From positions 1-27,933 of IMG/VR virus record IMGVR_UViG_3300035698_010282: a stretch of DNA of 27,933 bases, one strand, 5' to 3'. A program made the translations under genes and the position numbers. Shown here one piece after another: positions 2,763 to 23,290 of the stretch. This DNA is from a virus. Numbering within the stretch: the stretch's first letter is position 1; every line of letters starts with the position of its first letter. The notes beneath the pieces were generated by a model. The model was not told the origin of the DNA. It did no database searches and saw only the letters and a program-made list of their open reading frames with translations.

Positions 2763-3176
2763 ATGGCAACCAACAATCATCAAATTAGTAATGCAGAGTT
2801 CTTGTACTATCAAGAGCAATTTGCCGAAGCTGCTTTAGCGGGGATCACCAGTGATGATCCACTACGTACTGCGGCTGCTACAGTTCAGTCTGTAGACACG
2901 ACTACATTTACCCCATCTCAATATGCTGAAGTTGTAGTGGCACGGAATGGTTTTGTGCAAGATTTACTACAAACAGCAGAGCAAGTGGACATAGATGCTA
3001 TATCACTTGCCCCAATGCAACCCGCTTTTGAGGGTTTGTCGGCTCATATTAGGGAATGGACAGGAGGAACCTTGGACGAATATTTAACCGACCAAGGACT
3101 TCAAGTTCACCCAACGTTTGCTGCGATTGCTGCATTGTCTGGAGAACCCATAAGTACAGCGAATATTGAAACGTAA
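2763..3176 (+). CDS. Small phage protein of unknown function
   Basis: A 137-residue mildly acidic protein, predicted mostly helical, without a recognisable domain, signal peptide or membrane segment. It starts two bases after the preceding stop, with a weak AAGAGA upstream, and ends just before the Shine-Dalgarno of TerL. Translation is therefore probably coupled on both sides. The C-terminal part contains TLDEYL, resembling TLDDWL in the preceding 615-residue protein; this may be a shared small module. The position directly before TerL would suit a small terminase subunit, but I see no helix-turn-helix and no sequence support for that. Confidence 0.75.
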   Translation: MATNNHQISNAEFLYYQEQFAEAALAGITSDDPLRTAAATVQSVDTTTFTPSQYAEVVVARNGFVQDLLQTAEQVDIDAISLAPMQPAFEGLSAHIREWTGGTLDEYLTDQGLQVHPTFAAIAALSGEPISTANIET

Positions 3177-3186
3177 GGAGCAAACG

Positions 3187-5091
3187 ATGCCGAAGAAGAA
3201 ATTAGAACACGCATCAAGTAGTATATTTAGCAAACTCAAGGAGAAAATATTACTTGATTCTGCCACAGATGAAGCATACCTACCGAGTATTATCGAGTTT
3301 TGTGAACATAAGAAATATCTAGATTTGGGAGCGCAAGATATTACTCTATTCCCAATGCAGCGTATTATTCTCAAAACGTTCTATAGAGGACAAATTGGAA
3401 ATGAGAAGCTTGGTCTTACAGAAGATGAGATCGAGTATCTGCATGACCACAAGATGGAGAACATTGCAGAAAAGTATCGCAGTGGAACTCTGTTTAGAGA
3501 GTTAGTACTTGTGTTGGGTCGTCGTAGTGGTAAAGACTTTTTGACCGCTCTTATGGCTTTGTACGAAGCATTGTGGTTGTTAGAAGTTCCTGGCGGAAGT
3601 CCATTCAAGTATTATAAGATGGCAGCCGGTAACCCAATTTACATTCTAACCATTGCTACATCAAGCGACCAGGCTCGAATTCTGTTTAATGAAATGAAAA
3701 CTCGTATTCAGTTGAGTGATTATTTCAAAAACAAAATAGGCAAGGTTGAGAGTGACCGTATTTGGTTGCTTACTCCTGAAGACAAGGCTAATAACAAGAA
3801 ATTGATAGAAGGTGGACTAGAGACCGCAACCACACCGGGAAGCGTGGTTGTGTTGTCCGGTCACTCTAACTCTGAAGGTTTGCGTGGAAAACGTATATTT
3901 GCCCTGCTGTTGGACGAGGTTGCTTCTTTTAAGTCAACGGGTGCTGTTCAGTCCGGTGACTTGATCTATCAGGCTTTGATACCTGCAACGGCAGACTTCA
4001 AGGCACCCGGAGGCAAGATTAAGCCTAACTCCAGAACTGAAGAATGCCCCGATGGTCTTCCACTTTTGGACTCGAAGATTATCAGTATTTCTTCACCACG
4101 AGCAGAAGAGGGTATTTTGTACAAGATGTACAAGGGTGCAAAAGAAGTACCAGAGAGACTTGTGTTTAAGGCTCCCACTTGGAAAGTAAACCTGAAGTTT
4201 ACTGAATCCATGTTGCGTCATGAGTTTAAGTTGATGAGTCCGGTTATGTTTGCAATGGAGTTTGGGGCTGAGTTTTCTGGTACCGCTGGTGAACTATTCA
4301 TTCCTGCAAAATATGTCGATCAAGCTCGTGAAATGGGTGCAAACATGGGGTTGTCGCAACGTATTGCAGGCAAGCCAGGATTGATATACTATGCTCACTT
4401 GGACCCTGCTGCCACTTCTCATAATTATGCCCTTATAGTTCTTCATATTGAAGATCGTATTCGAGTTAGAGAGAATGACAAGGGTATGAGGATACAAGAA
4501 AAGGTAAAGATGTTTGTTGTTGACCATATAATGGCGTGGCAACCATCGCTTGCTGATTCTATTAAGGTTGCCAAGATAGATGATTATATCATTCAGCTTG
4601 CTAAGCGGTTTAGATTTGCAATGGTATCCTATGACAGTTGGAATTCACTGTCAAGTATTCAAAAGCTACGAGCTAAGGGAATACCGAGCAAGATGACTCA
4701 ATTCCGCAAGCAGTACAAGATGCATATTTACGATCATCTTGAGCATTTATTGGTGAATAATCAGCTTGCATTACCAATTACAGGCCCGTGGGCAACCTAT
4801 ATGGAGCAGGAGTTGAAGCATCTGCAACGGGCTTATGGTCCACAGGGTTTCAAAATCAAGCCTGATGACGAAGCACCAGTGAATACGGATGATCTGTGTG
4901 ATGCGTTGGCAGGAGCATGTGGTATTGCTGTTGAGGCCACTTTTGCAGGATATCCGAAGGGTGGGACAGTATATGTTCCACAGAATCGCACTGTTGGGGA
5001 ACAGCAGTGGAAAGTAGGCGGTGGCGTCTACACCGGAGATCAGTGGAAATTTATGCATAGGAAGTTTGGCTATAATCCTGGTATGTCATAA
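3187..5091 (+). CDS. Terminase large subunit (TerL)
   Basis: This 634-residue protein is the ATPase-nuclease motor that packages DNA into the prohead through the portal. The ATPase half has a Walker A GRRSGKD (111-117), a Walker B ALLLDE (239-244, with Asp243 and the catalytic Glu244), and a coupling motif ISISSPR. The RNase H-like nuclease half shows three acidic positions in the expected order: HLDP (Asp406), VSYD (Asp483) and NTDDLCDA (Asp572). Length and order are normal for TerL. I chose ATG 3187 because AAGGAG lies six bases upstream; a TTG at 3166 in the same frame would overlap the previous gene and put the ribosome site inside the coding region. No intein is present, unlike in the portal gene downstream. 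Confidence 0.95.
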   Translation: MPKKKLEHASSSIFSKLKEKILLDSATDEAYLPSIIEFCEHKKYLDLGAQDITLFPMQRIILKTFYRGQIGNEKLGLTEDEIEYLHDHKMENIAEKYRSGTLFRELVLVLGRRSGKDFLTALMALYEALWLLEVPGGSPFKYYKMAAGNPIYILTIATSSDQARILFNEMKTRIQLSDYFKNKIGKVESDRIWLLTPEDKANNKKLIEGGLETATTPGSVVVLSGHSNSEGLRGKRIFALLLDEVASFKSTGAVQSGDLIYQALIPATADFKAPGGKIKPNSRTEECPDGLPLLDSKIISISSPRAEEGILYKMYKGAKEVPERLVFKAPTWKVNLKFTESMLRHEFKLMSPVMFAMEFGAEFSGTAGELFIPAKYVDQAREMGANMGLSQRIAGKPGLIYYAHLDPAATSHNYALIVLHIEDRIRVRENDKGMRIQEKVKMFVVDHIMAWQPSLADSIKVAKIDDYIIQLAKRFRFAMVSYDSWNSLSSIQKLRAKGIPSKMTQFRKQYKMHIYDHLEHLLVNNQLALPITGPWATYMEQELKHLQRAYGPQGFKIKPDDEAPVNTDDLCDALAGACGIAVEATFAGYPKGGTVYVPQNRTVGEQQWKVGGGVYTGDQWKFMHRKFGYNPGMS

Positions 5092-7557: not shown

Positions 7558-8290
7558 TGGCATACAACTCTTAGAGAGTGAGCTAAGTGCTTTTGATATC
7601 TATTCTACTAAGGGTGGTCGAGTTAGTATCCATGTAGGTGACGAATGTGTTAAAGTAAAGAATATGGATGAAGCCCTATCGTTAGTTCAAGATGGGGTTT
7701 ATGAACTTACCACACACATATGGGGTAAATGGAGTCAACTCAAAGATGTGGCAGAGTTGATTACCCACAACGACGCCGGTAATAACGGTGGATTAGAAAA
7801 CATACTATTCCTAGCTAATGTCAGAAAAAGCTTCGTACTGTCATCTTTATTCTCAGACCTTGATGAAATCAGAGATGTTGTACGGGTTTTATTCAACCAA
7901 GATGCATCTGATATTAGCGATCAACTTATTTCCCAATTCAATAAAACATACTTATCTATCAAATTACTGCATCGCATGATAATGCGAGAGTTGTATCGAA
8001 TTAAGCTTATCGTTCGCTTCAAAACTTTGCATAAATCTGCACAGATATCAGGCCCGTGGGCAAACCTTGATTTACCAATGAAGGAGCGAGCATGGGAGTG
8101 GGATGAGGGAGAGGACGAATACTTCTCACTGCGTCAAAAGTCTAGACGAGAGCAAGTACGATACAACCCCGAGTATACTAAGGATGGGTATTTCTATGTG
8201 TGGCAAGATTTAACTAGAGACCCATACAAGTTTGAGGATATGCAAAAGGACAGCCCGTACAAGAGCAGGCTGCTTTTAAGTGTGCCATAA
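7520..8290 (+). CDS. Unknown protein beginning with an FNLK tag
   Basis: A 256-residue protein. The N-terminus reads MFNLKQHSVGEDD, like the start and internal segments of the 831-residue protein at 15499. The middle (about 85-175) is helical and Leu/Ile-rich but too charged for membrane segments, and the C-terminus is rich in aromatic and charged residues (WEWDEGEDEYFSLRQKSRRE). No known family is recognised. ATG 7520 is preferred over the in-frame GTG 7514 because GAGG lies six bases before it. The stop and the next start share TAATG, implying translational coupling to the nucleotidyltransferase downstream. Confidence 0.8.
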   Translation: MFNLKQHSVGEDDGIQLLESELSAFDIYSTKGGRVSIHVGDECVKVKNMDEALSLVQDGVYELTTHIWGKWSQLKDVAELITHNDAGNNGGLENILFLANVRKSFVLSSLFSDLDEIRDVVRVLFNQDASDISDQLISQFNKTYLSIKLLHRMIMRELYRIKLIVRFKTLHKSAQISGPWANLDLPMKERAWEWDEGEDEYFSLRQKSRREQVRYNPEYTKDGYFYVWQDLTRDPYKFEDMQKDSPYKSRLLLSVP

Positions 8291-9090
8291 TGGATAAAAA
8301 CGACTCTATGAAAGAAATTCTCATCTATGAGGCTGTGGCAAAGCTGAAGTACTTTGCCAGGCTGTACGGCATAGAGTCTCTATTCATAGTGGGCGGCTTT
8401 TGTAGAGAGTTGTATTACAGAACGCTGTGGAGAACGAATGACATAGATGTGGCATCATCTTTTCATGAACAAGCAATTCAACTGGGTAATCTATTTGCTT
8501 CAGAGGTGTTGAATACTTCACCAGAGATTCACAGGACATCAGGAGCGTCAACAGTCACTTTCAAAAGTGATGCAGGTGAAATACGCATTGACTTCCAAGG
8601 TCAAAGCATTTGTCAGTATATGCACAACCAAGAAGTGCGACAATGGATGCACGACAATGGAATTGATGATGTCCCCTTAATGAATAACATATTTGGGCGT
8701 GACTTTACAATGAACTCGCTCATATATTCTATAGATGATGAAAAAGTTTATGATCCTACTGATTTAGGTGTCAAGGACTTGGAAAGAAAAGTTGTATCTT
8801 CGTTGTTGCCATCACATCTCCTAGTTAAGTACAACCCCATCGCCATACTGAGAGCAATTAGGTTTGCCCTTACCTATGATTTTCATATTGATGATGAAAT
8901 GCGATCAGCTATGAAAGATGGCAAAGATATTCTGTGTAAATCAATATCTACAGAGAGGATCATCAAGGAGATAGTGCGAATATTAAAGGTTGATGCAGAG
9001 CAAGGCATTGAAATGCTCCAGAAATACAATCTGGGCAAAATGCTGTTAGTGCCAGAGATTAAGCAGTATCTAGGAGATGGAGATGATTAA
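8290..9090 (+). CDS. Poly(A) polymerase / CCA-adding tRNA nucleotidyltransferase family
   Basis: This 266-residue protein belongs to the class II nucleotidyltransferase superfamily (PcnB/Cca), which adds nucleotides to RNA 3' ends without a template. Motifs appear in order: VGGFCRE (34-40), the metal-binding NDIDV (Asp51 and Asp53), RDFTMNSL (from Arg137), YDPTDLGVKDLERK, NPIAILRAIRFA, and STERIIKEI. It is shorter than bacterial enzymes (about 400 residues or more), keeping the catalytic head and neck but lacking most of the C-terminal RNA-binding part. Whether it adds CCA or poly(A) cannot be decided by eye. It overlaps its upstream neighbour by one base (TAATG) and has no strong ribosome site, so translation is probably coupled. 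Its place inside a head-gene cluster is odd. Confidence 0.9.
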   Translation: MDKNDSMKEILIYEAVAKLKYFARLYGIESLFIVGGFCRELYYRTLWRTNDIDVASSFHEQAIQLGNLFASEVLNTSPEIHRTSGASTVTFKSDAGEIRIDFQGQSICQYMHNQEVRQWMHDNGIDDVPLMNNIFGRDFTMNSLIYSIDDEKVYDPTDLGVKDLERKVVSSLLPSHLLVKYNPIAILRAIRFALTYDFHIDDEMRSAMKDGKDILCKSISTERIIKEIVRILKVDAEQGIEMLQKYNLGKMLLVPEIKQYLGDGDD

Positions 9091-9847: not shown

Positions 9848-10283
9848 CCGAATGCTCAAGGGTAAAGTAGAGAAGGATCACTACTGGTATGACCAGATTA
9901 GAAAAGTGATGTTTCATGGTAAGGGTGGAAGGTTGGAATATACCTATGATCCGATATCGAAGAGATCAGTACCCAGCATCGTAGACCACGAAGAGGAAAT
10001 GTGGCAGAATGACTACCCATTGCTTAAGGAGTGGGTAGAGAGCAAACAAGAAGAATACGGGTTTACTGTAGAAAGTGATACTGGTAAAAACATAGTCTTA
10101 AGCGTAGATGTCAGACGATTTGAAGAGATGTCTAGAGACTTGTTCGACAATAACATAATTTCAGATCATGATGCAACAGTGTTGCGTAGCGAGACAAAAC
10201 TAGCAGAGGGAAAACATGGCAGACTTGACAGTCACAATCGCAGACGATCCGTTTACCTTGGCGAAAGGGTTAATGGGAGTTAA
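9822..10283 (+). CDS. Unknown protein overlapping the DUF192-like gene
   Basis: A 153-residue charged protein, with a Tyr/Trp/His-rich N-terminal third (KDHYWYDQIRKVMFHGKGG) and an acidic helical middle. No family is recognised. ATG 9822 has GGGGA six bases upstream; a TTG at 9816 is less likely. The last 22 codons overlap the following gene by 68 bases in another frame, longer than any other overlap here, and encode a very basic tail (GRLDSHNRRRSVYLGERVNG). This suggests loss of an older upstream stop. Confidence 0.7.
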   Translation: MEVVLQSHNRMLKGKVEKDHYWYDQIRKVMFHGKGGRLEYTYDPISKRSVPSIVDHEEEMWQNDYPLLKEWVESKQEEYGFTVESDTGKNIVLSVDVRRFEEMSRDLFDNNIISDHDATVLRSETKLAEGKHGRLDSHNRRRSVYLGERVNGS

Positions 10284-10584
10284 AAAGATGCCTGCCGATG
10301 AAGGTATGCTCTTCAAATTTCCCATGTTCCTAGAAGCAGGCTTCTGGGGAAAAGACACATATATTCCTTTGGATATCGCATTTATAGATGACAACAATAA
10401 GATTACATCTATCCGTGAGATTACCCCTATGTCAACTAGGTCGGTTAGAAGTGAAGGCAAGTGTGTAATGGCTATAGAAGCCAACCTTGGTTTCTTCAAA
10501 CGTAATGGAATTGACGTTGGACAAAAAGTAATAGTTGTGTCCAAGGACGACAATACCGCAGAGATTTCTTTCAAAGAGGGCTAA
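10216..10584 (+). CDS. DUF192-family protein
   Basis: This 122-residue protein matches the DUF192 pattern: KGLMGVKKMPADEGMLFKF, then FWGKDTYIPLDIAFID, then ITSIREITPMS, and a C-terminal VMAIEANLGFFKRNGIDVGQKV. In the usual family the second segment reads fWMknT-x-hPLDhhFhd, so Met is replaced by Gly here. DUF192 proteins are small beta-rich proteins of uncertain function, often exported in bacteria. This copy has no signal peptide, so it acts in the cytoplasm or virion. AGAGGG lies five bases before the ATG. It lies inside the overlapping phage gene run and is not an obvious cargo insertion. Confidence 0.8.
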   Translation: MADLTVTIADDPFTLAKGLMGVKKMPADEGMLFKFPMFLEAGFWGKDTYIPLDIAFIDDNNKITSIREITPMSTRSVRSEGKCVMAIEANLGFFKRNGIDVGQKVIVVSKDDNTAEISFKEG

Positions 10585-15498: not shown

Positions 15499-17994
15499 GT
15501 GGCATTTAACCTCAAAAAGTATTCAGATAGTGTGCCAGTCGTTGATGCTGGACCTAGCATTCAGGAGGGATTTGATACTCTAGGGGATTTGTATCAGCCA
15601 GATGAGACTGCTAATTTGCATACTCAAGATGTGCTGGATCAGTCCACTAACCCAGACCAAGATCGAATATTGCAGCAATCTCAGAATTTACCTCTGATAC
15701 AAGAGTTGGAAACAATTCTTGCACAGGTTGAACCTGGATATGCTAATGCGATACGGCAACAACCGGAAATCAATGCCTTATTGGAAGCAGATGATTTATC
15801 GGCATTGCGTCAAAAAATTGATGAGGATCAGCTTGGCCCAATAGTTGAACAGTTCGACAAAAATGTTGACAGGGCCATTCAACCTCACGAGTTGCAATCT
15901 TATGTAGACGGTGTTGTGGCCGACATGAGGGCAGCCGAGGAGCAAAAACAGATTCAATTAGAGCAGGCTCAGCAGGCTCAGATGGCTAAAAGAACAACTG
16001 CTCAAATAATGGCTCCTGACCCTGTAGACGAAACAGAGAAGGGGCAATTTATTCAGCGTTATCTTGATCCTCTTTTGTCTTATCAGGGAGGTAAAGGTCC
16101 AAGAGATAGCGCTGCGGAGGAAACGAAGCAGGAAATACTGGGTGCAGTTAGTCCAATGCTTCAGAACGATGCCAATGATGCTTTGGAGTCAATCCAAACA
16201 TTAAACATCCAAGAACGTGACAAAGCAGGACACATACTTGGCTTAGTATTCGAGAACTTCGTTGCCCCTGCTGCATTAGAAACTAGCGCTGTGGAGCAAC
16301 CAGTTATGAGTGAACTTAACCCAAAAGGCATCATCAAGTTTGATTTAAGCGATCATGTCTTAAACAATAAAAAAGAAGCAATGGTCAAAACTGCTGCCGA
16401 CCAGTTTGGTCAGCAATATGTGCTGTATGGCCCAACCGAAAAACGTATCTGCCCCAAGTTAAGAGCTAAGGGCGTAGGTGACGTTGTTTCTGAATACATC
16501 TGTCGCCATCATTGCCTTGATGGTATCGTAATTGATGACAACAAAACTATTTGTGGCGAAGCCTTATGGCGCGCCAATGCTATGGATAAGTTCTCTCGTG
16601 AATACGTCAACGAAGATGGCGATATTCAAGGTGGTTATCTAAACAAGCGGTTTGAGATCAATCGTAACGTCCCTGAAGAAAACAAGATGAGACTCAAGCC
16701 TGGTGAGACGCGCAAGCCCCGACCGGCATCTACTTTCGGCAACATGGAAGCTCGCATGCAAGAGATGCGAGAGAAGGAAGCCAAAAAAAGAGGATACGAG
16801 CCCGATTCAGATACCTCGCCTCCATTTGAGTGGTGCCACGATCAAGATCAAAACAACGTAGAGCAGACGCAATCAACTCGCAATAGCCGAGAAGAAGCTG
16901 CTGGTCACAAACTAGCACCGGGTCAAGGCCCAGAGAATAACCCAAAGAAGGCATTTAACCTCAAGGCATTCAAAACTGCTAAGAGAGATCAACTAGCCAA
17001 AGAGATCAAAGAGACTCACGACGATGACGATCCAGATCAGTTGGCAATAGAAATCAAGAAAACTCACACCGAAGCCAAAGTTGCATCGGCAGTAGAGAAT
17101 GATGATATCAAGAAGGTTGAAACCAAAGATTTTCCCACTGATCCAGTCAAACCTGACAAGCCCTGTGGCACATGCAGAGCCACCGTCAACAAGTCTTTCA
17201 ATATGAAAAGGCATGCAGAAGGTGTGAATACTATTGTCACAGAGGATGGCAAGCCTATAGAGCCAGAAGAAGATGAAATCAGAGACGATAATCATCATTC
17301 CCGAAATAAGAAGGCAGATGCATTTGATTTTTTGAAAAGAAATCCTAAACCCAAAGCATCAGGTGACTGCCCTTCCTGTGGAGAACCATTTGACAACCCT
17401 GATGGAACTTGGAAAATGTGTCGTCACTGCCGAAAACAAGAGTATACACAACCGGATGGTGCATCTAGAGTTGTGAATGACAAAAGCTCCTTTAATCTGA
17501 AGGACTTTAAGCTCGCATCTAAAAAAAAAAACTTAACCACTGCTAATCAGATACAAGTCACTGATCCCTTCGAGCGTGCTGTAGGCAAGGGCAATGCTGT
17601 AGCGCCAGTTGCACGCGGAGTTGGCACAGCACTACAAAAACAAAAGCAGGAGTGGGACAAAAGACAGCAAGAAAAGCAATGGCGTCAGCACATGAATGAC
17701 ATGACTGGCCGCCAACAACGTGGCGAATTAGGTGCAACACCGCAAACACCTCAAGTTGCTCCACCTACCAAATCTAAGCCAATGCAGGCACCCAGAGTCA
17801 AGGTGACTCCAGAGATACTGTCTGTGTTCGAAGGTGATAAAGATGAAGTTCTTGACTTCATTGACTCACTAAACAAGCACGAACTCAGTATAATGGAACG
17901 CAACTGTGATAACCCAGATGTTATCAAAAGACTCAGAATACGGGTCCGTAGTGATATTGAAGAAACAGCCAAAGATTTGGCGATGGAGGATTAG
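15499..17994 (+). CDS. Large multi-segment protein with FNLK tags and Cys clusters
   Basis: This 831-residue protein starts with GTG, directly after the previous stop, with GGGA six bases upstream; the open frame reaches back to 15400, but that part overlaps the previous gene. The N-terminus reads MAFNLKKYSDS, and related tags recur at 485-494 (AFNLKAFKTA), 566-572 (SFNMKRH) and 664-673 (SFNLKDFKLA), as if several ORFs with the same N-terminal tag had been joined. Cys groups suggest metal sites: one cluster near 315-355 containing CRHHC, a CGTC at 556-559, and a four-Cys zinc-ribbon pattern at 624/627/641/644. Long helical Gln/Glu stretches lie at about 50-200. An A11 run lies at codons 675-678. 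No family is recognised. Confidence 0.75.
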   Translation: MAFNLKKYSDSVPVVDAGPSIQEGFDTLGDLYQPDETANLHTQDVLDQSTNPDQDRILQQSQNLPLIQELETILAQVEPGYANAIRQQPEINALLEADDLSALRQKIDEDQLGPIVEQFDKNVDRAIQPHELQSYVDGVVADMRAAEEQKQIQLEQAQQAQMAKRTTAQIMAPDPVDETEKGQFIQRYLDPLLSYQGGKGPRDSAAEETKQEILGAVSPMLQNDANDALESIQTLNIQERDKAGHILGLVFENFVAPAALETSAVEQPVMSELNPKGIIKFDLSDHVLNNKKEAMVKTAADQFGQQYVLYGPTEKRICPKLRAKGVGDVVSEYICRHHCLDGIVIDDNKTICGEALWRANAMDKFSREYVNEDGDIQGGYLNKRFEINRNVPEENKMRLKPGETRKPRPASTFGNMEARMQEMREKEAKKRGYEPDSDTSPPFEWCHDQDQNNVEQTQSTRNSREEAAGHKLAPGQGPENNPKKAFNLKAFKTAKRDQLAKEIKETHDDDDPDQLAIEIKKTHTEAKVASAVENDDIKKVETKDFPTDPVKPDKPCGTCRATVNKSFNMKRHAEGVNTIVTEDGKPIEPEEDEIRDDNHHSRNKKADAFDFLKRNPKPKASGDCPSCGEPFDNPDGTWKMCRHCRKQEYTQPDGASRVVNDKSSFNLKDFKLASKKKNLTTANQIQVTDPFERAVGKGNAVAPVARGVGTALQKQKQEWDKRQQEKQWRQHMNDMTGRQQRGELGATPQTPQVAPPTKSKPMQAPRVKVTPEILSVFEGDKDEVLDFIDSLNKHELSIMERNCDNPDVIKRLRIRVRSDIEETAKDLAMED
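16951..17517 (+). repeat. Internal FNLK-type peptide tags
   Basis: Three internal copies of an F-N-(L/M)-K tag begin at 16951, 17194 and 17485-17488, matching the N-terminus encoded at 15502. The 15502 and 16951 copies share 14 identical bases, GCATTTAACCTCAA. Each is followed within a few residues by basic sequence and preceded by a charged linker. A fifth copy opens the protein at 7520. Confidence 0.6.
17521..17531 (+). other. A11 homopolymer in coding sequence, possible slippage site
   Basis: Eleven consecutive A followed by C sit inside the 831-residue gene. In the reading frame the end of the run reads A-AAA-AAC, a known -1 slippery heptamer. A -1 slip meets TAA at 17544-17546, and a +1 slip meets TAA at 17534-17536. 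Either would give a roughly 680-residue product without the C-terminal 150 residues. Whether slippage happens is not shown. Confidence 0.4.
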
Positions 17995-17995
17995 G

Positions 17996-18793
17996 ATGAG
18001 TCAAAAGAAGAACATATGCACAAAGCTTCTTGAAGACCTCTACGTTGCCAAAAAAATGTCTTCAACAGAAATATCAAAATTCTTGCAAAACCAGGGTGAA
18101 GACATTAAACCTTGGATTGTATCTCGACGACTAAAAGAACTAGGAATGACTCGAAATATGTCACAAGCTCTATTGGTTAAAGATTTTCGGAAACCCACTC
18201 TTAAATTGTCAGGAAAAGAGATAGAAGCTTTGGATGGTTTTTTGTTAGGAGACGGACACATTCAGCGGCGATCCTCAAGATCAGGACGATTATCTTTGAC
18301 TGTGCAACATGCAGAATTTGGTAATTACCTGCTATCTCATTTTAATCGTTATTCTCCCAAAGGCAGACAGCGATATATTAGCTCGAAAAGATACCAAAAA
18401 ACGTTATCTCAATGGTCGGGGGAAACCAAATCGGATCGATGTTTTTTAGATCAGAGAAACAGATGGTATCCTCAGAATGTCAAACGTATTCCTAAAGACG
18501 TACATTTAACACCATTGTCTATGTTGCTGTGGTATCTTGGTGATGGGCATTATGTGCCCCGAGACGGATGCATTTTCCTAAATACTCAAAGTTTTATAAT
18601 TGAAGATGTTAAATTTTTGTGCTCTAAGTTGAACGACATTGGAGTAGATTGTCATAGAGATAAACGAAACAAGATATACATTGGCGCTAAAAGTGCTCAT
18701 CTGTTTCTGAGTTTACTTGCTGACAACCCTGTTCAGTGTTACCAATACAAATTTAGAGCCTTGGAATCGTCTGCCACTTTGGTAGACGGATGA
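17996..18793 (+). CDS. Free-standing LAGLIDADG homing endonuclease
   Basis: This 265-residue protein has two LAGLIDADG motifs, LDGFLLGDG (79-87) and LLWYLGDG (177-184), each ending in the acidic residue that binds the catalytic metal. It is therefore expected to act as a monomeric two-repeat DNA endonuclease. The N-terminal 65 residues (LLEDLYVAKKMSSTEISKFL, then WIVSRRLKELGM) resemble a helix-turn-helix DNA-binding element often added to homing enzymes. ATG 17996 is preceded by GGAGG at six bases; longer in-frame starts overlap the previous gene. No intein splicing motifs flank it. It lies 18 bases before the portal gene, which itself contains two LAGLIDADG inteins. The target is most likely in this neighbourhood in phages lacking the element, which is inference. 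Confidence 0.9.
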   Translation: MSQKKNICTKLLEDLYVAKKMSSTEISKFLQNQGEDIKPWIVSRRLKELGMTRNMSQALLVKDFRKPTLKLSGKEIEALDGFLLGDGHIQRRSSRSGRLSLTVQHAEFGNYLLSHFNRYSPKGRQRYISSKRYQKTLSQWSGETKSDRCFLDQRNRWYPQNVKRIPKDVHLTPLSMLLWYLGDGHYVPRDGCIFLNTQSFIIEDVKFLCSKLNDIGVDCHRDKRNKIYIGAKSAHLFLSLLADNPVQCYQYKFRALESSATLVDG

Positions 18794-18811: not shown

Positions 18812-21800
18812 ATGGGCAATCTAATACTACCAGATGATCCTAATTACAAACAACCCCTGATTATGGGCGACCCATATGCGAATGCATTGACTCCGAAGTT
18901 AGCTCAACAAAAAAGAATTCAAGAGTTAGATGATGAAAGAGGAATGGGAGGCGGAAATTTCAAGTACGCCAGTAGTGCTATAGCTTCCTCTGCTGATGCC
19001 AGATTTACTGGGTTTATGAAAAATGCCCAGATGACTGGCACCAGCAATATGATGGGCCAACCTATGTGGTTCAGCCCTCTGCATACCCCCCAGAACTGGC
19101 AGATTGCCAGTAAGCGACGTGAAATTTATCAGTGGTGCAGGTTCTTCTACGAGAATGAGCCGAAGGTAGCTGCTGCTATTGACTTCTATAGTCGTTTCCC
19201 AATGAATGGGTTTAAGATTGAATGTGAAGACCCCAAGGTTCTGAAGTACTTTGAACGCAAAGTTTCAGGTCGCACTGGAAAACCAGGCCCTCTGGAGTTG
19301 AATGAAAACTTCAAGATGATTTCTTCCGAGTATTTCATGCTCGGTGATGTCTTTGTACATACGGACATTAAATGTCCTGTATGTTCTGGTCAAGGTGCTG
19401 ATCCCGCTACAGGTGAAAGATGTAATCACCCAGGCGGTCTCATTAAGTCAATCAAGATTCTTAATCCAGACTGGATGGAAGTACAACAATCAATTCTCGC
19501 AGATGAGCCATCTATTGTTATGGTTCCAGACGAAGAACTGAAGCGCATTGTATTCTACAAGCAACCCAAGAACGTTTATGACAGCATTCCAGATGCGGTG
19601 AAGAAACTGGTTATCCAGAATAAGCCGATCCCGATGTCCAACAGGACTATATCGCACATCAAGCATATGCCTGTCCCATATGGAACTTACGGCTCGTCGT
19701 TGGTTCGTCGTCTGTTTACTACTCTAGCCTACAAGACTAAGATCATGACTGCCAACTGGATTGTTGCAGAGCGTTTGATCCTTCCGGTCAGAGTTGTCAA
19801 GATTGGTAGTGATAACCGTCCAGCTACTTCCGCAGACATTGCTGATATACAGCAACAAATTGCGGCTACCGCTAACGATCCTAACCTAACCATTGTTACT
19901 CACCACAACTTTGAGTATGAATGGTATGGCGCAGCAGGCAAGATACTCCAAGTAACGCAAGAGATGGAAAATATTGGCAAGGAAATCCTAGACGGTTTCA
20001 TGCTCAACCAATCGTTGCTCAACGGTGAGATGTGCATACCTCAATATGACCGCATGCTCACAAGAGATGGATTGAAATCTTTATCTCAGATTTCTAAGGA
20101 TGACGAGATTGCCACATTTAACAAAGAAACTGGAATGCTTGAGTATCAGAAGCCAAGTGCTATTCATGTCTATGATTATGATGGCGAGTTGATGCATTTC
20201 CAAACTGATCGAATTGATTTTGCTTGCACTCCAAATCATAGAATGTTGTATCAGAAGCGAGACCATGATGAGTGGATTGTCGATACAGCAGATAAGGTCC
20301 GTGATAGAGCAAAATTCAGAAAGACAGTATCATGGGGTGGATCGGATTGGATAAAAGACTTAGATACAACTTGCACTAAAATAGCAGGTAAAGAGGCAAC
20401 ATTCCGTGAGCTTCTAAAAATTGTCGCTTACTATGTATCTGAAGGACATATTCAGAAAGAAACACGTAAAATTAGAAGTACTTATGGAAATCCACAAAGT
20501 GTTCAAATATCCCAAACAGAAAAAGGTAAGGGATGGGATGATCTGTGTGAACTAAGAAAAACATCTCGAATTAAGGTTTCCAAGACACGACACGGGTTTG
20601 CTATACATAATACTGAATTCGCAAAGATAATGCATGATTCATGTGGTCATCTTAGTCACAATAAGTTTGTTCCACAATGGATAAAGCAACAATCTGTAGA
20701 AACACTGCAATTATTCTTGGGATATCTCATCAACGGTGATGGATCGTTACGAACCAGAGATAAGCACGGGCCGAAGAAGTACTATACCTACTACACCAAT
20801 AGTATGCAACTTCGTGATGATGTCATGGAAATTGCTTTGAAGTGTGGCTACTTCCCACGGTTCCGCAAGCGCAGAACTATATGGGAAATAACATTCTCCG
20901 ATTATGATCTTGGCAAAGAAACTATTCCACTTGAGTCCAAAAAACATGATACCATCACCAAGATGCCATACAAAGGCAAGGTGTGGTGTGTAACGGTTCC
21001 AAATAGTTTCATTATTACAGAACGCAACGGAAAGTTGACAATTAGTGGAAACTCAGGTTATCAGTCGGCTCAGGTCGGTGTTGAAACCCTTATTCGTCGT
21101 ATCGAATCGTGGAGAAGTACTCTTGGTGAATGGGCTCACAAGAATATATTCAAGCCTGTAGCAGAGATGCAAGGGTTTGTTGATGAAGAAGAAAGTGAAG
21201 AAACAGGTGAAACTGTCTTCATGTATCCGACCATCAAGTGGAACGATCTAAACCTCAAAGACAAGACGCAATGGTATCAGTTGTTAAACCAACTGCATGA
21301 TAAGCAACTACTTTCTTCCCAGACGCTACTTGAAGAATTAGACCTTGACTACGATCAAGAAGTCAAGAGACAGCGCTTTGAGCAAATGCAGTCCGGTCCT
21401 GCTGGCGCTGCTATGGGTCAACCTCCGGGTGGCATGGACCCAATGGGCGGCATGGGTGGAGCGCCAGGCGGAATGCCGGGTGACCCAGCCGCAGCAGGCA
21501 TGGACCCAATGGGTGGCATGGGCGGAGCCGCAGACGCAGGAATGATGGGTGGAGCCGGTGCGGGTGGAATGGCCCCAGGCGGTATGGCACCAATGGCTGA
21601 AGGTGGCAAGGTGCAGAAGAAAGGTAAGCAAAAATCTCAGCAGCAAGAAGAAATGCCTGCTGAAGCTATGCCTATGATAAAGCTCACAAGTATTGAGCAA
21701 GAGATGGCTGGCATTCTAACAAGTCTTGCCGAAGTGTACCAGCTTAATCCACAATTTATTAAGGCTCAGTTCCCTGTGCAAAACCCAACTGGAGCAAAGC

Positions 21801-23290
21801 CATACGCTATTGATTTCGCGTTACCACACTTGAAAATAGGAGTAGAGTGCCTACATCCAGAACAATTGACAATGACCAAATGTGGGTCAAAGTTTGCTAA
21901 GGACATAACTCATAAAGATGAACTATTAGATAGAAATGGGAAATTCACTAAGATTAAGAATGTAATCCGAAATAAATATGATGATGATCTAATGGTTATT
22001 AAACCCCTTGGATTACGTCCAATCAAAGTGACAAAAAATCACCCGTTCATGGTATGTCATCCTAAAAAATCCAGAGTGCTAAGAGAAGAACCTACAGTAA
22101 CTAGGACTAGATCGTATATATCCCCTGATGGAAGTAATGAATTTGTTAACGCTTCTGAAGTCAAGAAGGGCGATTACTTGATGATTCCTAAAACAAGATG
22201 GAAACGAGAACAATATAGAATCGATTTGCGTGATTATCATGGCAAAGCCCATAATGCTGCAAAGTTGCCACAATGGTTGGCGCTTGATTATGACTTGGGA
22301 TGGTTGCTTGGTATTTATGCAGCGGAAGGATGTGCTAACTACAAGCGATCTGCTATAGAATTTTCGTTTAACATAAAAGAAACGGAGTTAATAGCTAGAA
22401 CGCAAAACATATTAGAATCGAAATTTAACCTGAAATCTCGGGTTGCAAATTATCCAGAAGACAATGTTGCTAAAGTTATTGTATGTTGCAATGGTTTGGC
22501 TAGGTGGTTTGTAGATAACTTTGGTCTGCATGCACCAGAGAAACAATTACCTGCATTCATATTGCATGCACCACGACAAACTCAGGATGGATTTATCCAA
22601 GCCTTTATGGAAGGGGATGGATGCATTCGACCGGAATCAGGAGATTACAGGATGATCTCTTCTTCTGAACGACTGCTTACAGACATGCAATTTTTGGTAT
22701 TTAACATGGGGCATTTTGCCACTCTATCACAAAGCAGAAAACCAAAATTGTCTATGATTCTTGGTCGTGAATGTACCACACGCGGGTTGTGGGAATTAAC
22801 AATTAAGTTTGGTGGTTACACTAAAGCAAAACATCGGGAAGATGAATGCTATTATTACGTTCCAGTTAATGGAATTACTACCGAACGTTATGACGGGGTT
22901 GTAGTTAACTTTGAAACTGAAGATCACACTTACTGTGCTGGTCATGTTGTCACACATAATTGTGATGGTGATGTTTGGCATAGTAATCCTGAACAAAAAG
23001 AGAGTGATAAACAAAGGGATTATTTATTAGCTCAACGTGGATGGACTGTTTTGCGGTTTGATGACAAAGCTATAGAGGATGCAAGGCAGGCTGTTCAGAA
23101 TACTATAGGTACGTATATAGGCAAAGCAATGAAAGGCGGCAGTAAGACTGCCAGTAAGACAGAGATAGTTATTCCGTTGCTTTATACTTTGAAAAAAGAC
23201 AAGTTATTCACAATGGGTAGCCATGCCGAATACTTGGGTAGATTTTACAAGGCTGGCATCAAACACGACGAAGGAAGGCTTACCAAATGA
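18812..23290 (+). CDS. Portal protein with two inteins and C-terminal nuclease-like domain
   Basis: This 1492-residue precursor has exteins 1-407, 748-1012 and 1384-1492, giving a 781-residue mature product. The first extein and the start of the second look like a portal, the dodecameric ring at the head vertex through which DNA enters: MWFSPLHTPQNWQIASKRRE, a YFMLGDVFV strand, SHIKHMPVPYG, LLNGEM joined to SGYQSAQVGVETLIRRIESW, and a stem-like helical segment. A CPVC-x12-C-N-H group (Cys188, Cys191, Cys204, His206) may bind zinc. Then comes a Gly/Met-rich linker (about 866-935) and a C-terminal domain resembling DUF559/Vsr-like nucleases. The ATG has AGGTG upstream. The stop overlaps the next gene (ATGA). 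The portal call rests on motif order and on position between TerL and the protease. Confidence 0.88.
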   Translation: MGNLILPDDPNYKQPLIMGDPYANALTPKLAQQKRIQELDDERGMGGGNFKYASSAIASSADARFTGFMKNAQMTGTSNMMGQPMWFSPLHTPQNWQIASKRREIYQWCRFFYENEPKVAAAIDFYSRFPMNGFKIECEDPKVLKYFERKVSGRTGKPGPLELNENFKMISSEYFMLGDVFVHTDIKCPVCSGQGADPATGERCNHPGGLIKSIKILNPDWMEVQQSILADEPSIVMVPDEELKRIVFYKQPKNVYDSIPDAVKKLVIQNKPIPMSNRTISHIKHMPVPYGTYGSSLVRRLFTTLAYKTKIMTANWIVAERLILPVRVVKIGSDNRPATSADIADIQQQIAATANDPNLTIVTHHNFEYEWYGAAGKILQVTQEMENIGKEILDGFMLNQSLLNGEMCIPQYDRMLTRDGLKSLSQISKDDEIATFNKETGMLEYQKPSAIHVYDYDGELMHFQTDRIDFACTPNHRMLYQKRDHDEWIVDTADKVRDRAKFRKTVSWGGSDWIKDLDTTCTKIAGKEATFRELLKIVAYYVSEGHIQKETRKIRSTYGNPQSVQISQTEKGKGWDDLCELRKTSRIKVSKTRHGFAIHNTEFAKIMHDSCGHLSHNKFVPQWIKQQSVETLQLFLGYLINGDGSLRTRDKHGPKKYYTYYTNSMQLRDDVMEIALKCGYFPRFRKRRTIWEITFSDYDLGKETIPLESKKHDTITKMPYKGKVWCVTVPNSFIITERNGKLTISGNSGYQSAQVGVETLIRRIESWRSTLGEWAHKNIFKPVAEMQGFVDEEESEETGETVFMYPTIKWNDLNLKDKTQWYQLLNQLHDKQLLSSQTLLEELDLDYDQEVKRQRFEQMQSGPAGAAMGQPPGGMDPMGGMGGAPGGMPGDPAAAGMDPMGGMGGAADAGMMGGAGAGGMAPGGMAPMAEGGKVQKKGKQKSQQQEEMPAEAMPMIKLTSIEQEMAGILTSLAEVYQLNPQFIKAQFPVQNPTGAKPYAIDFALPHLKIGVECLHPEQLTMTKCGSKFAKDITHKDELLDRNGKFTKIKNVIRNKYDDDLMVIKPLGLRPIKVTKNHPFMVCHPKKSRVLREEPTVTRTRSYISPDGSNEFVNASEVKKGDYLMIPKTRWKREQYRIDLRDYHGKAHNAAKLPQWLALDYDLGWLLGIYAAEGCANYKRSAIEFSFNIKETELIARTQNILESKFNLKSRVANYPEDNVAKVIVCCNGLARWFVDNFGLHAPEKQLPAFILHAPRQTQDGFIQAFMEGDGCIRPESGDYRMISSSERLLTDMQFLVFNMGHFATLSQSRKPKLSMILGRECTTRGLWELTIKFGGYTKAKHREDECYYYVPVNGITTERYDGVVVNFETEDHTYCAGHVVTHNCDGDVWHSNPEQKESDKQRDYLLAQRGWTVLRFDDKAIEDARQAVQNTIGTYIGKAMKGGSKTASKTEIVIPLLYTLKKDKLFTMGSHAEYLGRFYKAGIKHDEGRLTK
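20033..21052 (+). mobile_element. Intein 1 in portal body, LAGLIDADG type
   Basis: A 340-residue intein (precursor residues 408-747). Block A starts at Cys408 (CIPQYDRMLTRDGLKSL), block B holds TPNH (Thr473-His476), and the end carries block F VWCVTVPNSFIITERNGK and block G ISGN, with Asn747 followed by Ser748 as the +1 nucleophile. The penultimate residue is Gly instead of His, a variant seen in other phage inteins. Two LAGLIDADG motifs (VAYYVSEG 538-545 and LGYLINGDG 636-644) mark an apparently intact homing endonuclease. Splicing would join LLNGEM to SGYQSAQ, restoring a continuous portal segment. The open frame throughout shows it is an intein, not an intron. Confidence 0.92.
21434..21529 (+). 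repeat. Direct repeat in Gly/Met-rich linker
   Basis: Two 30-base copies encoding MDPMGGMGGA, at 21434-21463 and 21500-21529, differ at three bases. They lie in a stretch richer in GC than the flanks and encode the flexible linker between portal body and nuclease-like domain. The repeat explains long antisense reading frames seen here, which are not genes. Confidence 0.8.
21797..23130 (+). other. Nuclease-like domain (DUF559/Vsr-like) split by intein 2
   Basis: After removal of intein 2 the portal C-terminus reads KPYAIDFALPHLKIGVE joined to CDGDVWHSNPEQ, then KQRDYLLAQRGWTVLRF and a helix AIEDARQAVQNTI. This is the order of DUF559-like PD-(D/E)XK enzymes: Asp on a strand, E-x-D-G on the next strand, W-H, a helix with D/R, and G-W-x-V-L-R-F. 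Candidate catalytic residues are Asp661, Glu672 and Asp674 in mature numbering (Asp1001, Glu1012, Asp1385 in the precursor). Members include patch-repair endonucleases and restriction-like nucleases. Activity here is predicted, not shown. Confidence 0.75.
21848..22960 (+). mobile_element. Intein 2 in nuclease-like domain, LAGLIDADG type
   Basis: A 371-residue intein (precursor residues 1013-1383). Block A begins at Cys1013 (CLHPEQLTMTKCG), block B is VTKNHPF (Thr1074, His1077), and the C-terminal blocks read YDGVVVNFETEDHTYCAGHVVTHN, with the classical His-Asn end and Cys1384 as the +1 nucleophile. LAGLIDADG motifs lie at 1162-1173 (LGWLLGIYAAEG) and 1262-1270 (IQAFMEGDG). All parts needed for splicing and homing appear intact. 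It lies between Glu1012 and Cys1384-Asp1385 of the host domain, that is, inside the predicted catalytic E-x-D. By eye it is more AT-rich than the adjacent linker. Confidence 0.93.

Follow-up and report, generated by a model that had tools for sequence, protein, structure and literature searches.

A LAGLIDADG-type intein in the predicted active-site strand of a nuclease domain fused to a phage portal protein

The window, i.e., the whole stretch of viral DNA analysed here (27,933 nt), carries on its plus strand an open reading frame at 18812-23290, which the translation check confirmed as a single uninterrupted frame of 1492 aa. Its product combines a phage portal protein with a DUF559/Vsr-like nuclease domain at the C-terminus. 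After subtraction of two inteins, the frame consists of the portal protein, a Gly/Met-rich linker and the C-terminal nuclease domain. The features of this frame and the terminase gene of the window are listed below with the evidence for each.

3166..5091, plus strand: terminase large subunit, which retains its ATPase motifs and the Asp residues of its nuclease and is distinct from the portal-fused nuclease (PHROG, motif check)
18812..20032, plus strand: portal protein, N-extein 1, residues 1-407 (PHROG portal families; AF2 model of the homolog L018 against solved portals)
20033..21052, plus strand: intein 1, residues 408-747, 340 aa (LAGLIDADG_3 match; intein-free portals)
21053..21391, plus strand: portal C-terminal part, residues 748-860 (alignment to intein-free portals)
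21392..21673, plus strand: Gly/Met/Pro-rich linker from portal to nuclease, residues about 861-954 (predicted to be disordered in L018)
21674..21847, plus strand: N-part of the nuclease domain with E962, D1001 and E1012 (profile and conservation)
21848..22960, plus strand: intein 2, residues 1013-1383, 371 aa, with a LAGLIDADG homing endonuclease (Pfam, NCBIfam, junction alignment)
22961..23176, plus strand: C-part of the nuclease domain with C1384, D1385, G1386, H1390, D1399, R1402-D1403, W1411 and R1415 (profile and conservation)
23177..23290, plus strand: variable C-terminal tail and stop (translation, homolog comparison)

The portal assignment is based on phrog_16240, matched by the window protein at E 2.4e-30 and by L018, an intein-free homolog of 761 aa from a 548-kb contig, at E 1.8e-43. 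The AF2 model of L018, built from an alignment of 22 intein-free portals, is weak at full length (mean pLDDT 62.6). In a structure search with this modest-confidence model, residues 76-497 matched many solved portals, including those of lambda (8xow; Z 15.8, 5.3 A, 295 aligned) and T4 (6uzc; Z 12.8, 7.1 A, 318 aligned). Residues 496-595, the linker, have pLDDT below 50, and residues 599-707 match 3hrl with Z 13.6.

Relatives were collected in two scans. Scanning viral contigs with the N-part of the portal gave 34 loci, 33 of them with the nuclease domain; the remaining locus (L033) ends upstream of it. An alignment of 28 nuclease domains served as the query for the other scan, which gave 139 relatives, of which the best 80 were analysed. 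The combined set includes 82 contigs and the window, 83 in total, with some near-identical contigs counted separately, and contains 72 distinct nuclease domains.

The Pfam families MTES_1575 and DUF559 match the split nuclease domain of the window. Both were also found in 28/28 intein-free homologous domains, and Vsr matched one of these 28 at E 0.01. The AF2 model obtained from the 28 aligned nuclease domains (pLDDT 89.7) is close to 3hrl (Z 13.2, 1.8 A, 94 aligned), to the catalytic domain of I-Bth0305I (3r3p; Z 12.8, 2.5 A, 96 aligned) and to Vsr (1cw0; Z 10.4, 2.4 A, 100 aligned). By profile, fold and catalytic residues, the domain is a predicted DUF559/Vsr-like PD-(D/E)xK nuclease, its activity being deduced from these features.

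In the profile-based comparison, all 72 distinct domains have the helix Glu, the Asp of DFA, the Glu of E-x-D, Gly, His, D, R-D, Trp and Arg. The Asp of E-x-D is kept in 68/72, being replaced by Glu in two domains and by Cys in two. The sequence-only reading of this locus had taken E-x-D for a conserved motif; these counts bear it out, and intein-free homologs read straight through it. Sequence variation is greater in the nuclease domain than in the core of the portal (mean pairwise difference 0.58 vs 0.46). Invariance of the active-site residues in spite of a 58% mean difference thus indicates strong selection on the active site. It could be supposed that the domain is a DNA-binding relic devoid of catalysis, as the four domains lacking the Asp of E-x-D might suggest; this is quite unlikely, since E, D, E, H, D and R-D are present in every distinct domain despite the divergence. 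The E-x-C and E-x-E variants, two domains each, are found among L058, L071, L063 and L106, with the other catalytic residues intact.

Intein 2 starts with Cys1, contains KVTKNHP, which is presumably the T-x-N-H motif, and ends with His-Asn followed by Cys+1; LLGIYAAEG and FMEGDG are taken here for LAGLIDADG-type motifs. In Pfam, the whole protein matches LAGLIDADG_3 (E 4.3e-17) and Intein_splicing (E 2.4e-8; 34.4 bits at a cut-off of 35.8), and in NCBIfam it matches TIGR01445 (E 4e-4; 21.3 at a cut-off of 24.5). The L017 protein exceeds the cut-offs for both Intein_splicing and TIGR01445, its best Intein_splicing stretch (519-844) lying outside its own intein 2. A scan for the wider intein 2 family gave five loci. 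Two of them, L017 (84% identity) and L009 (about 41-42%), have a similar intein at the same site, that of L009 without the usual penultimate His; the other three reach 24-28%. Judging by the matching intein-free homologs and the terminal motifs, intein 2 is an in-frame LAGLIDADG-type intein. It is most likely self-splicing, and splicing is presumably constitutive. The intein would probably remove itself spontaneously after translation, leaving the unbroken active site GVE-CDGDVWH.

The earlier reading had placed intein 2 between Glu1012 and Cys1384-Asp1385, and these residue numbers are exact (GVE/CLHPE...VTHN/CDGDVWHS, slashes marking the junctions); the span 21797-23130 to which it pointed comprises the split nuclease domain and intein 2. 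It had also expected intein-free homologs to show a continuous IGVECDGD-type sequence. The site is present in 82/83 contigs. It is uninterrupted, as E-x-(D/E/C)-G, in 79 of these 82 and carries an intein in three (window, L009, L017), although the intein frequency among the relatives from the nuclease scan may be too low, because ranking of the best 80 disfavours intein-split domains. With so many unbroken sites, the intein 2 junction is no chance reading. In the portal-scan set alone, two of the 33 loci reaching the site have an intein there. Residue x of E-x-D among the 72 distinct domains is A in 37, T in 12, V in 10, C in 7, S in 4, I in 1 and L in 1. All three intein carriers have Cys at this position, as do some intein-free relatives (L001, L002, L057, L074); thus, the +1 Cys needed for splicing can exist without the intein.

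In the nuclease model, the insertion point follows residue 56 and lies within the strand 53-58. The proposal that intein 2 splits the predicted catalytic E-x-D holds. Since the insertion is inside the active-site strand, the unspliced precursor should be inactive; going by the model, it should have no assembled active site.

The history of intein 2 differs from that of its surroundings. Between the window and L017, dS of intein 2 is 0.64, as against 2.63 for the portal core, 2.56 for intein 1, 2.04 for the portal C-part and 2.06 for the nuclease C-part, values above 2 being near saturation. Third codon positions are identical in 268/371 codons of intein 2 vs 335/645 codons of the flanks (p 1.6e-10; counts rounded from the computed identities), and the third-position identity of intein 1 does not differ from that of the flanks (p 0.95). 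As dS of intein 2 is far below that of the flanks, the intein moved after the host genes of the two phages had diverged. From this indirect dS comparison, it is a horizontally transferred element with signs of recent homing between lineages. Its dN/dS of about 0.14 in the same pair points to an element that has stayed functional. With the L009 copy, identity is as low as about 41-42%; therefore, either the site was invaded repeatedly or the intein has long been present in that lineage.

The sequence-only reading had further proposed that splicing could delay a toxic nuclease until late in infection and so act as its activation switch. In such a scheme, the phage would keep the enzyme dead by letting intein 2 splice slowly or only under certain conditions. 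The insertion does split the predicted active site, and conditional splicing has been reported for some inteins (RadA and DnaB). Retention across the lineage would be expected of such a switch; the intein occurs in just 3/82 site-bearing contigs, and the intein-free relatives keep the same nuclease without this control. Moreover, intein 2 spread horizontally and recently, as a homing element does; the gene family carries inteins at at least seven other sites in the portal part, unconnected to the nuclease; intein 1 interrupts the portal segment of the same protein, so the unspliced precursor would have no intact portal either; and the nuclease belongs to a structural virion protein and is not a free toxin. 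This part of the proposal is thus very improbable. Intein 2 is rather, with a probability of about 0.8, a mobile homing-endonuclease-bearing intein lodged in the coding sequence of the conserved E-x-D-G strand of the portal-fused nuclease, with no sign of selection as a switch. It resembles a transient parasite more than an on/off device, and would be a clean case of a parasite that occupies an active-site codon and continues to spread from lineage to lineage. With one nuclease in three intein states and many intein-free homologs, the system is testable.

The portal gene appears to be a frequent target of such elements. Across the family there are 96 insertions in 52/83 contigs at no fewer than eight sites, with as many as four in a single gene (L009, L017, L033, L051, L056). 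In L018 numbering, 25 insertions are at position 88, 4 at 94, 13 at 107, 1 at 165, 4 at 341, 20 at 347, 26 at 380-384 and 3 at the nuclease site. In this tally, the insert of 823 aa in L022 counts once, and position 471 of L051 is grouped with 380-384. Given so many insertions, the intein at the nuclease site needs no special purpose. Pfam and NCBIfam searches of four of these proteins (L017, L009, L033, L022) gave Hint, intein and LAGLIDADG domains. The idea that insertions choose the most conserved columns is weak: the sites lie at percentiles 62-90, moderately above average, with the nuclease site at 90. Intein 1 (20033-21052) has Cys as its first residue, and its last two residues are Gly-Asn in place of His-Asn; the +1 residue is Ser. 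Unlike intein 2, it has diverged to a similar extent as the flanks.

A free-standing LAGLIDADG_2 homing endonuclease (17906..18793, plus strand; E 5e-22) is encoded just upstream of the portal gene and may cut in or near it. Open frames of about 1000-1200 aa are found around TerL in L132-L135, L137 and L139, the TerL match being split in four of these records, which suggests that their terminases also contain inteins. According to a study on mycobacteriophages (PMC5050341), LAGLIDADG inteins occur there in frame in TerL and portal proteins, at active centres, and one protein can have several insertion sites; splicing of representative TerL inteins is fast, and alleles without an intein are cut by the endonucleases of these inteins. 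The present inteins are likewise in frame, with a homing endonuclease, in a head and packaging protein. Unlike those inteins, one of the sites here, out of at least eight in the portal family, is in a portal-fused nuclease domain.

The extein is a more interesting object than the intein, the novelty being a packaging-associated nuclease fused to the portal. Among the best 80 of the 139 nuclease matches, on contigs of up to 548 kb, 79 are fused in frame to a portal; in the exception (L066), the portal match is elsewhere in the locus. Pairwise distances of the nuclease and portal core are correlated (r 0.758; 0/2000 permutations as high; Mantel test, n=67 distinct contigs in which both are present), which favours a long shared ancestry. 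The nuclease queries matched 6 and 52 annotated phage records, and, as compared by organism tallies, these matches include none of the 213 records of annotated phages in which a related portal was found. The best annotated portal relative, gp14 of Bacillus phage G (32.6% identity), ends, unlike the fused portals, in a Pro/Gly-rich tail without a nuclease. A prophage or host origin was considered and dropped: in one scan, 29 nuclease relatives were found in bacterial and archaeal genomes, 0 of them with a portal match. No description of a portal-nuclease fusion was found in the open-licence PMC literature, and the fusion appears to be unusual and undescribed. Portals are thought of as structural conduits. 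If the conserved nuclease of these portals, seen on contigs of up to 548 kb, is indeed catalytic, the portal would also edit or check DNA during packaging.

Could the nuclease itself be a homing-endonuclease module like I-Bth0305I (EDxHD type) that became attached to the portal gene and persists to promote its own propagation rather than to serve the phage? The catalytic domain of I-Bth0305I is the best characterised match in PDB by fold and sequence, and DUF559-like domains exist in stand-alone phage proteins, such as an ORF of a Lak phage. Homing enzymes are usually patchy in distribution; the nuclease is present in 82/83 contigs, with no empty portal in the group among the relatives found. 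It also tracks the portal phylogeny, its active site is uniformly kept, and no extra DNA-binding modules of the homing type were seen. Such an origin is unlikely. I-Bth0305I (EDxHD) and the Vsr endonucleases share the fold and active-site layout with the portal nuclease; unlike it, they are free or intron-encoded and have no portal part. Motif details of the I-Bth0305I-type EDxHD homing endonucleases are given in PMC3943268. In the Lak-B5 phage, the ORF L116:3942-5765, read with TAG as Q, contains Cys-rich repeats followed by a related, stand-alone nuclease motif (IGIECNGTYWHS).

A function in packaging is suggested by the location of the domain. In structural work (PMC4493910, PMC9958956), the portal crown is inside the capsid, and in P22 an additional extension at the C-terminus of the portal lies within the head. 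The nuclease is expected, by analogy, inside the capsid and beyond the portal crown. Since all DNA enters through the ring that carries the domain, the likeliest role of the latter is DNA processing during packaging. A ring of nucleases flexibly tethered beyond the crown would act on DNA emerging into the head, and might remove branched, nicked or otherwise abnormal structures. Such packaging-linked processing by a crown-tethered ring is advanced tentatively, at slightly worse than even odds. The broader picture, a lineage of huge uncultured phages with a PD-(D/E)xK nuclease on every portal subunit inside the capsid and with packaging coupled to DNA cutting, is possible and falls a little short of an even chance. 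If true, DNA cutting at the channel mouth by the portal itself would be a way of packaging that is not known from phages studied so far. It would be odd for a nuclease to face the packaged DNA without regulation; either substrate specificity or control would be needed.

Alternatively, the domain might be a filter of DNA quality or of self and non-self, cutting unmodified or mismatched DNA that enters the head. Among the neighbouring folds are the mismatch enzyme Vsr and the 5hmC-dependent PvuRts1I/AbaSI; specificity does not follow from a shared fold, and this function is about as improbable as the homing origin.

For packaging-linked processing, several known systems are comparable. HNH packaging nucleases of the HK97 gp74 type were reportedly the subject of Kala et al. 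2014. Enzymes of this type (PMC9410871) are, like the present nuclease, accessory to the packaging machine besides TerL; unlike it, gp74 has the HNH fold, is encoded by a separate gene and works with terminase at cos. T4 endonuclease VII (gp49) is portal-bound and clears branched DNA during packaging, so that, as in the present proposal, a nuclease is held at the portal (gp20; PMC9958956). However, gp49 is a protein on its own and from another family; the domain described here is covalently joined to the portal, is of the PD-(D/E)xK/Vsr type and might be a covalent counterpart of gp49. The T4 gp4/TnsA-like head-completion nuclease (PMC7824862) has the REase fold and is needed for head morphogenesis in large phages; unlike the domain described here, it is a separate protein not fused to the portal.

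Other packaging nucleases were surveyed in nine of the ten contigs above 180 kb among the loci; the tenth, L114, is very similar to L113. All nine large records have the fusion, and eight have no other DUF559 domain. Endonuclease VII was recognised in 1/9 and RusA in 2/9; RuvC and Hjc were found in none of the nine, and T7 endonuclease I in none above the cut-off, with one match below it. Thus, 6/9 have no recognised resolvase of the five families, which is merely permissive, as the records may be fragments. Strict replacement of a packaging resolvase by the fused nuclease is weakened by the recognisable separate resolvase in 3/9. The endonuclease VII homolog of the 548-kb phage is L115 (G001:C1:379405-379662; E 2.8e-19). 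TerL is present in all nine, with the covered ATPase and nuclease positions kept except for one doubtful Asp (Ala in L136). Replacement of a dead TerL nuclease was rejected on these grounds. As TerL keeps its own nuclease residues, the need for another cutter is not obvious.

In the rest of the 27,933-nt window, Rfam gave no match and no tRNA genes were found. Its structural gene region also encodes a dUTPase (285-752), a protein similar to tRNA nucleotidyltransferase/poly(A) polymerase (8290-9090) and a DUF192 protein (10216-10584).
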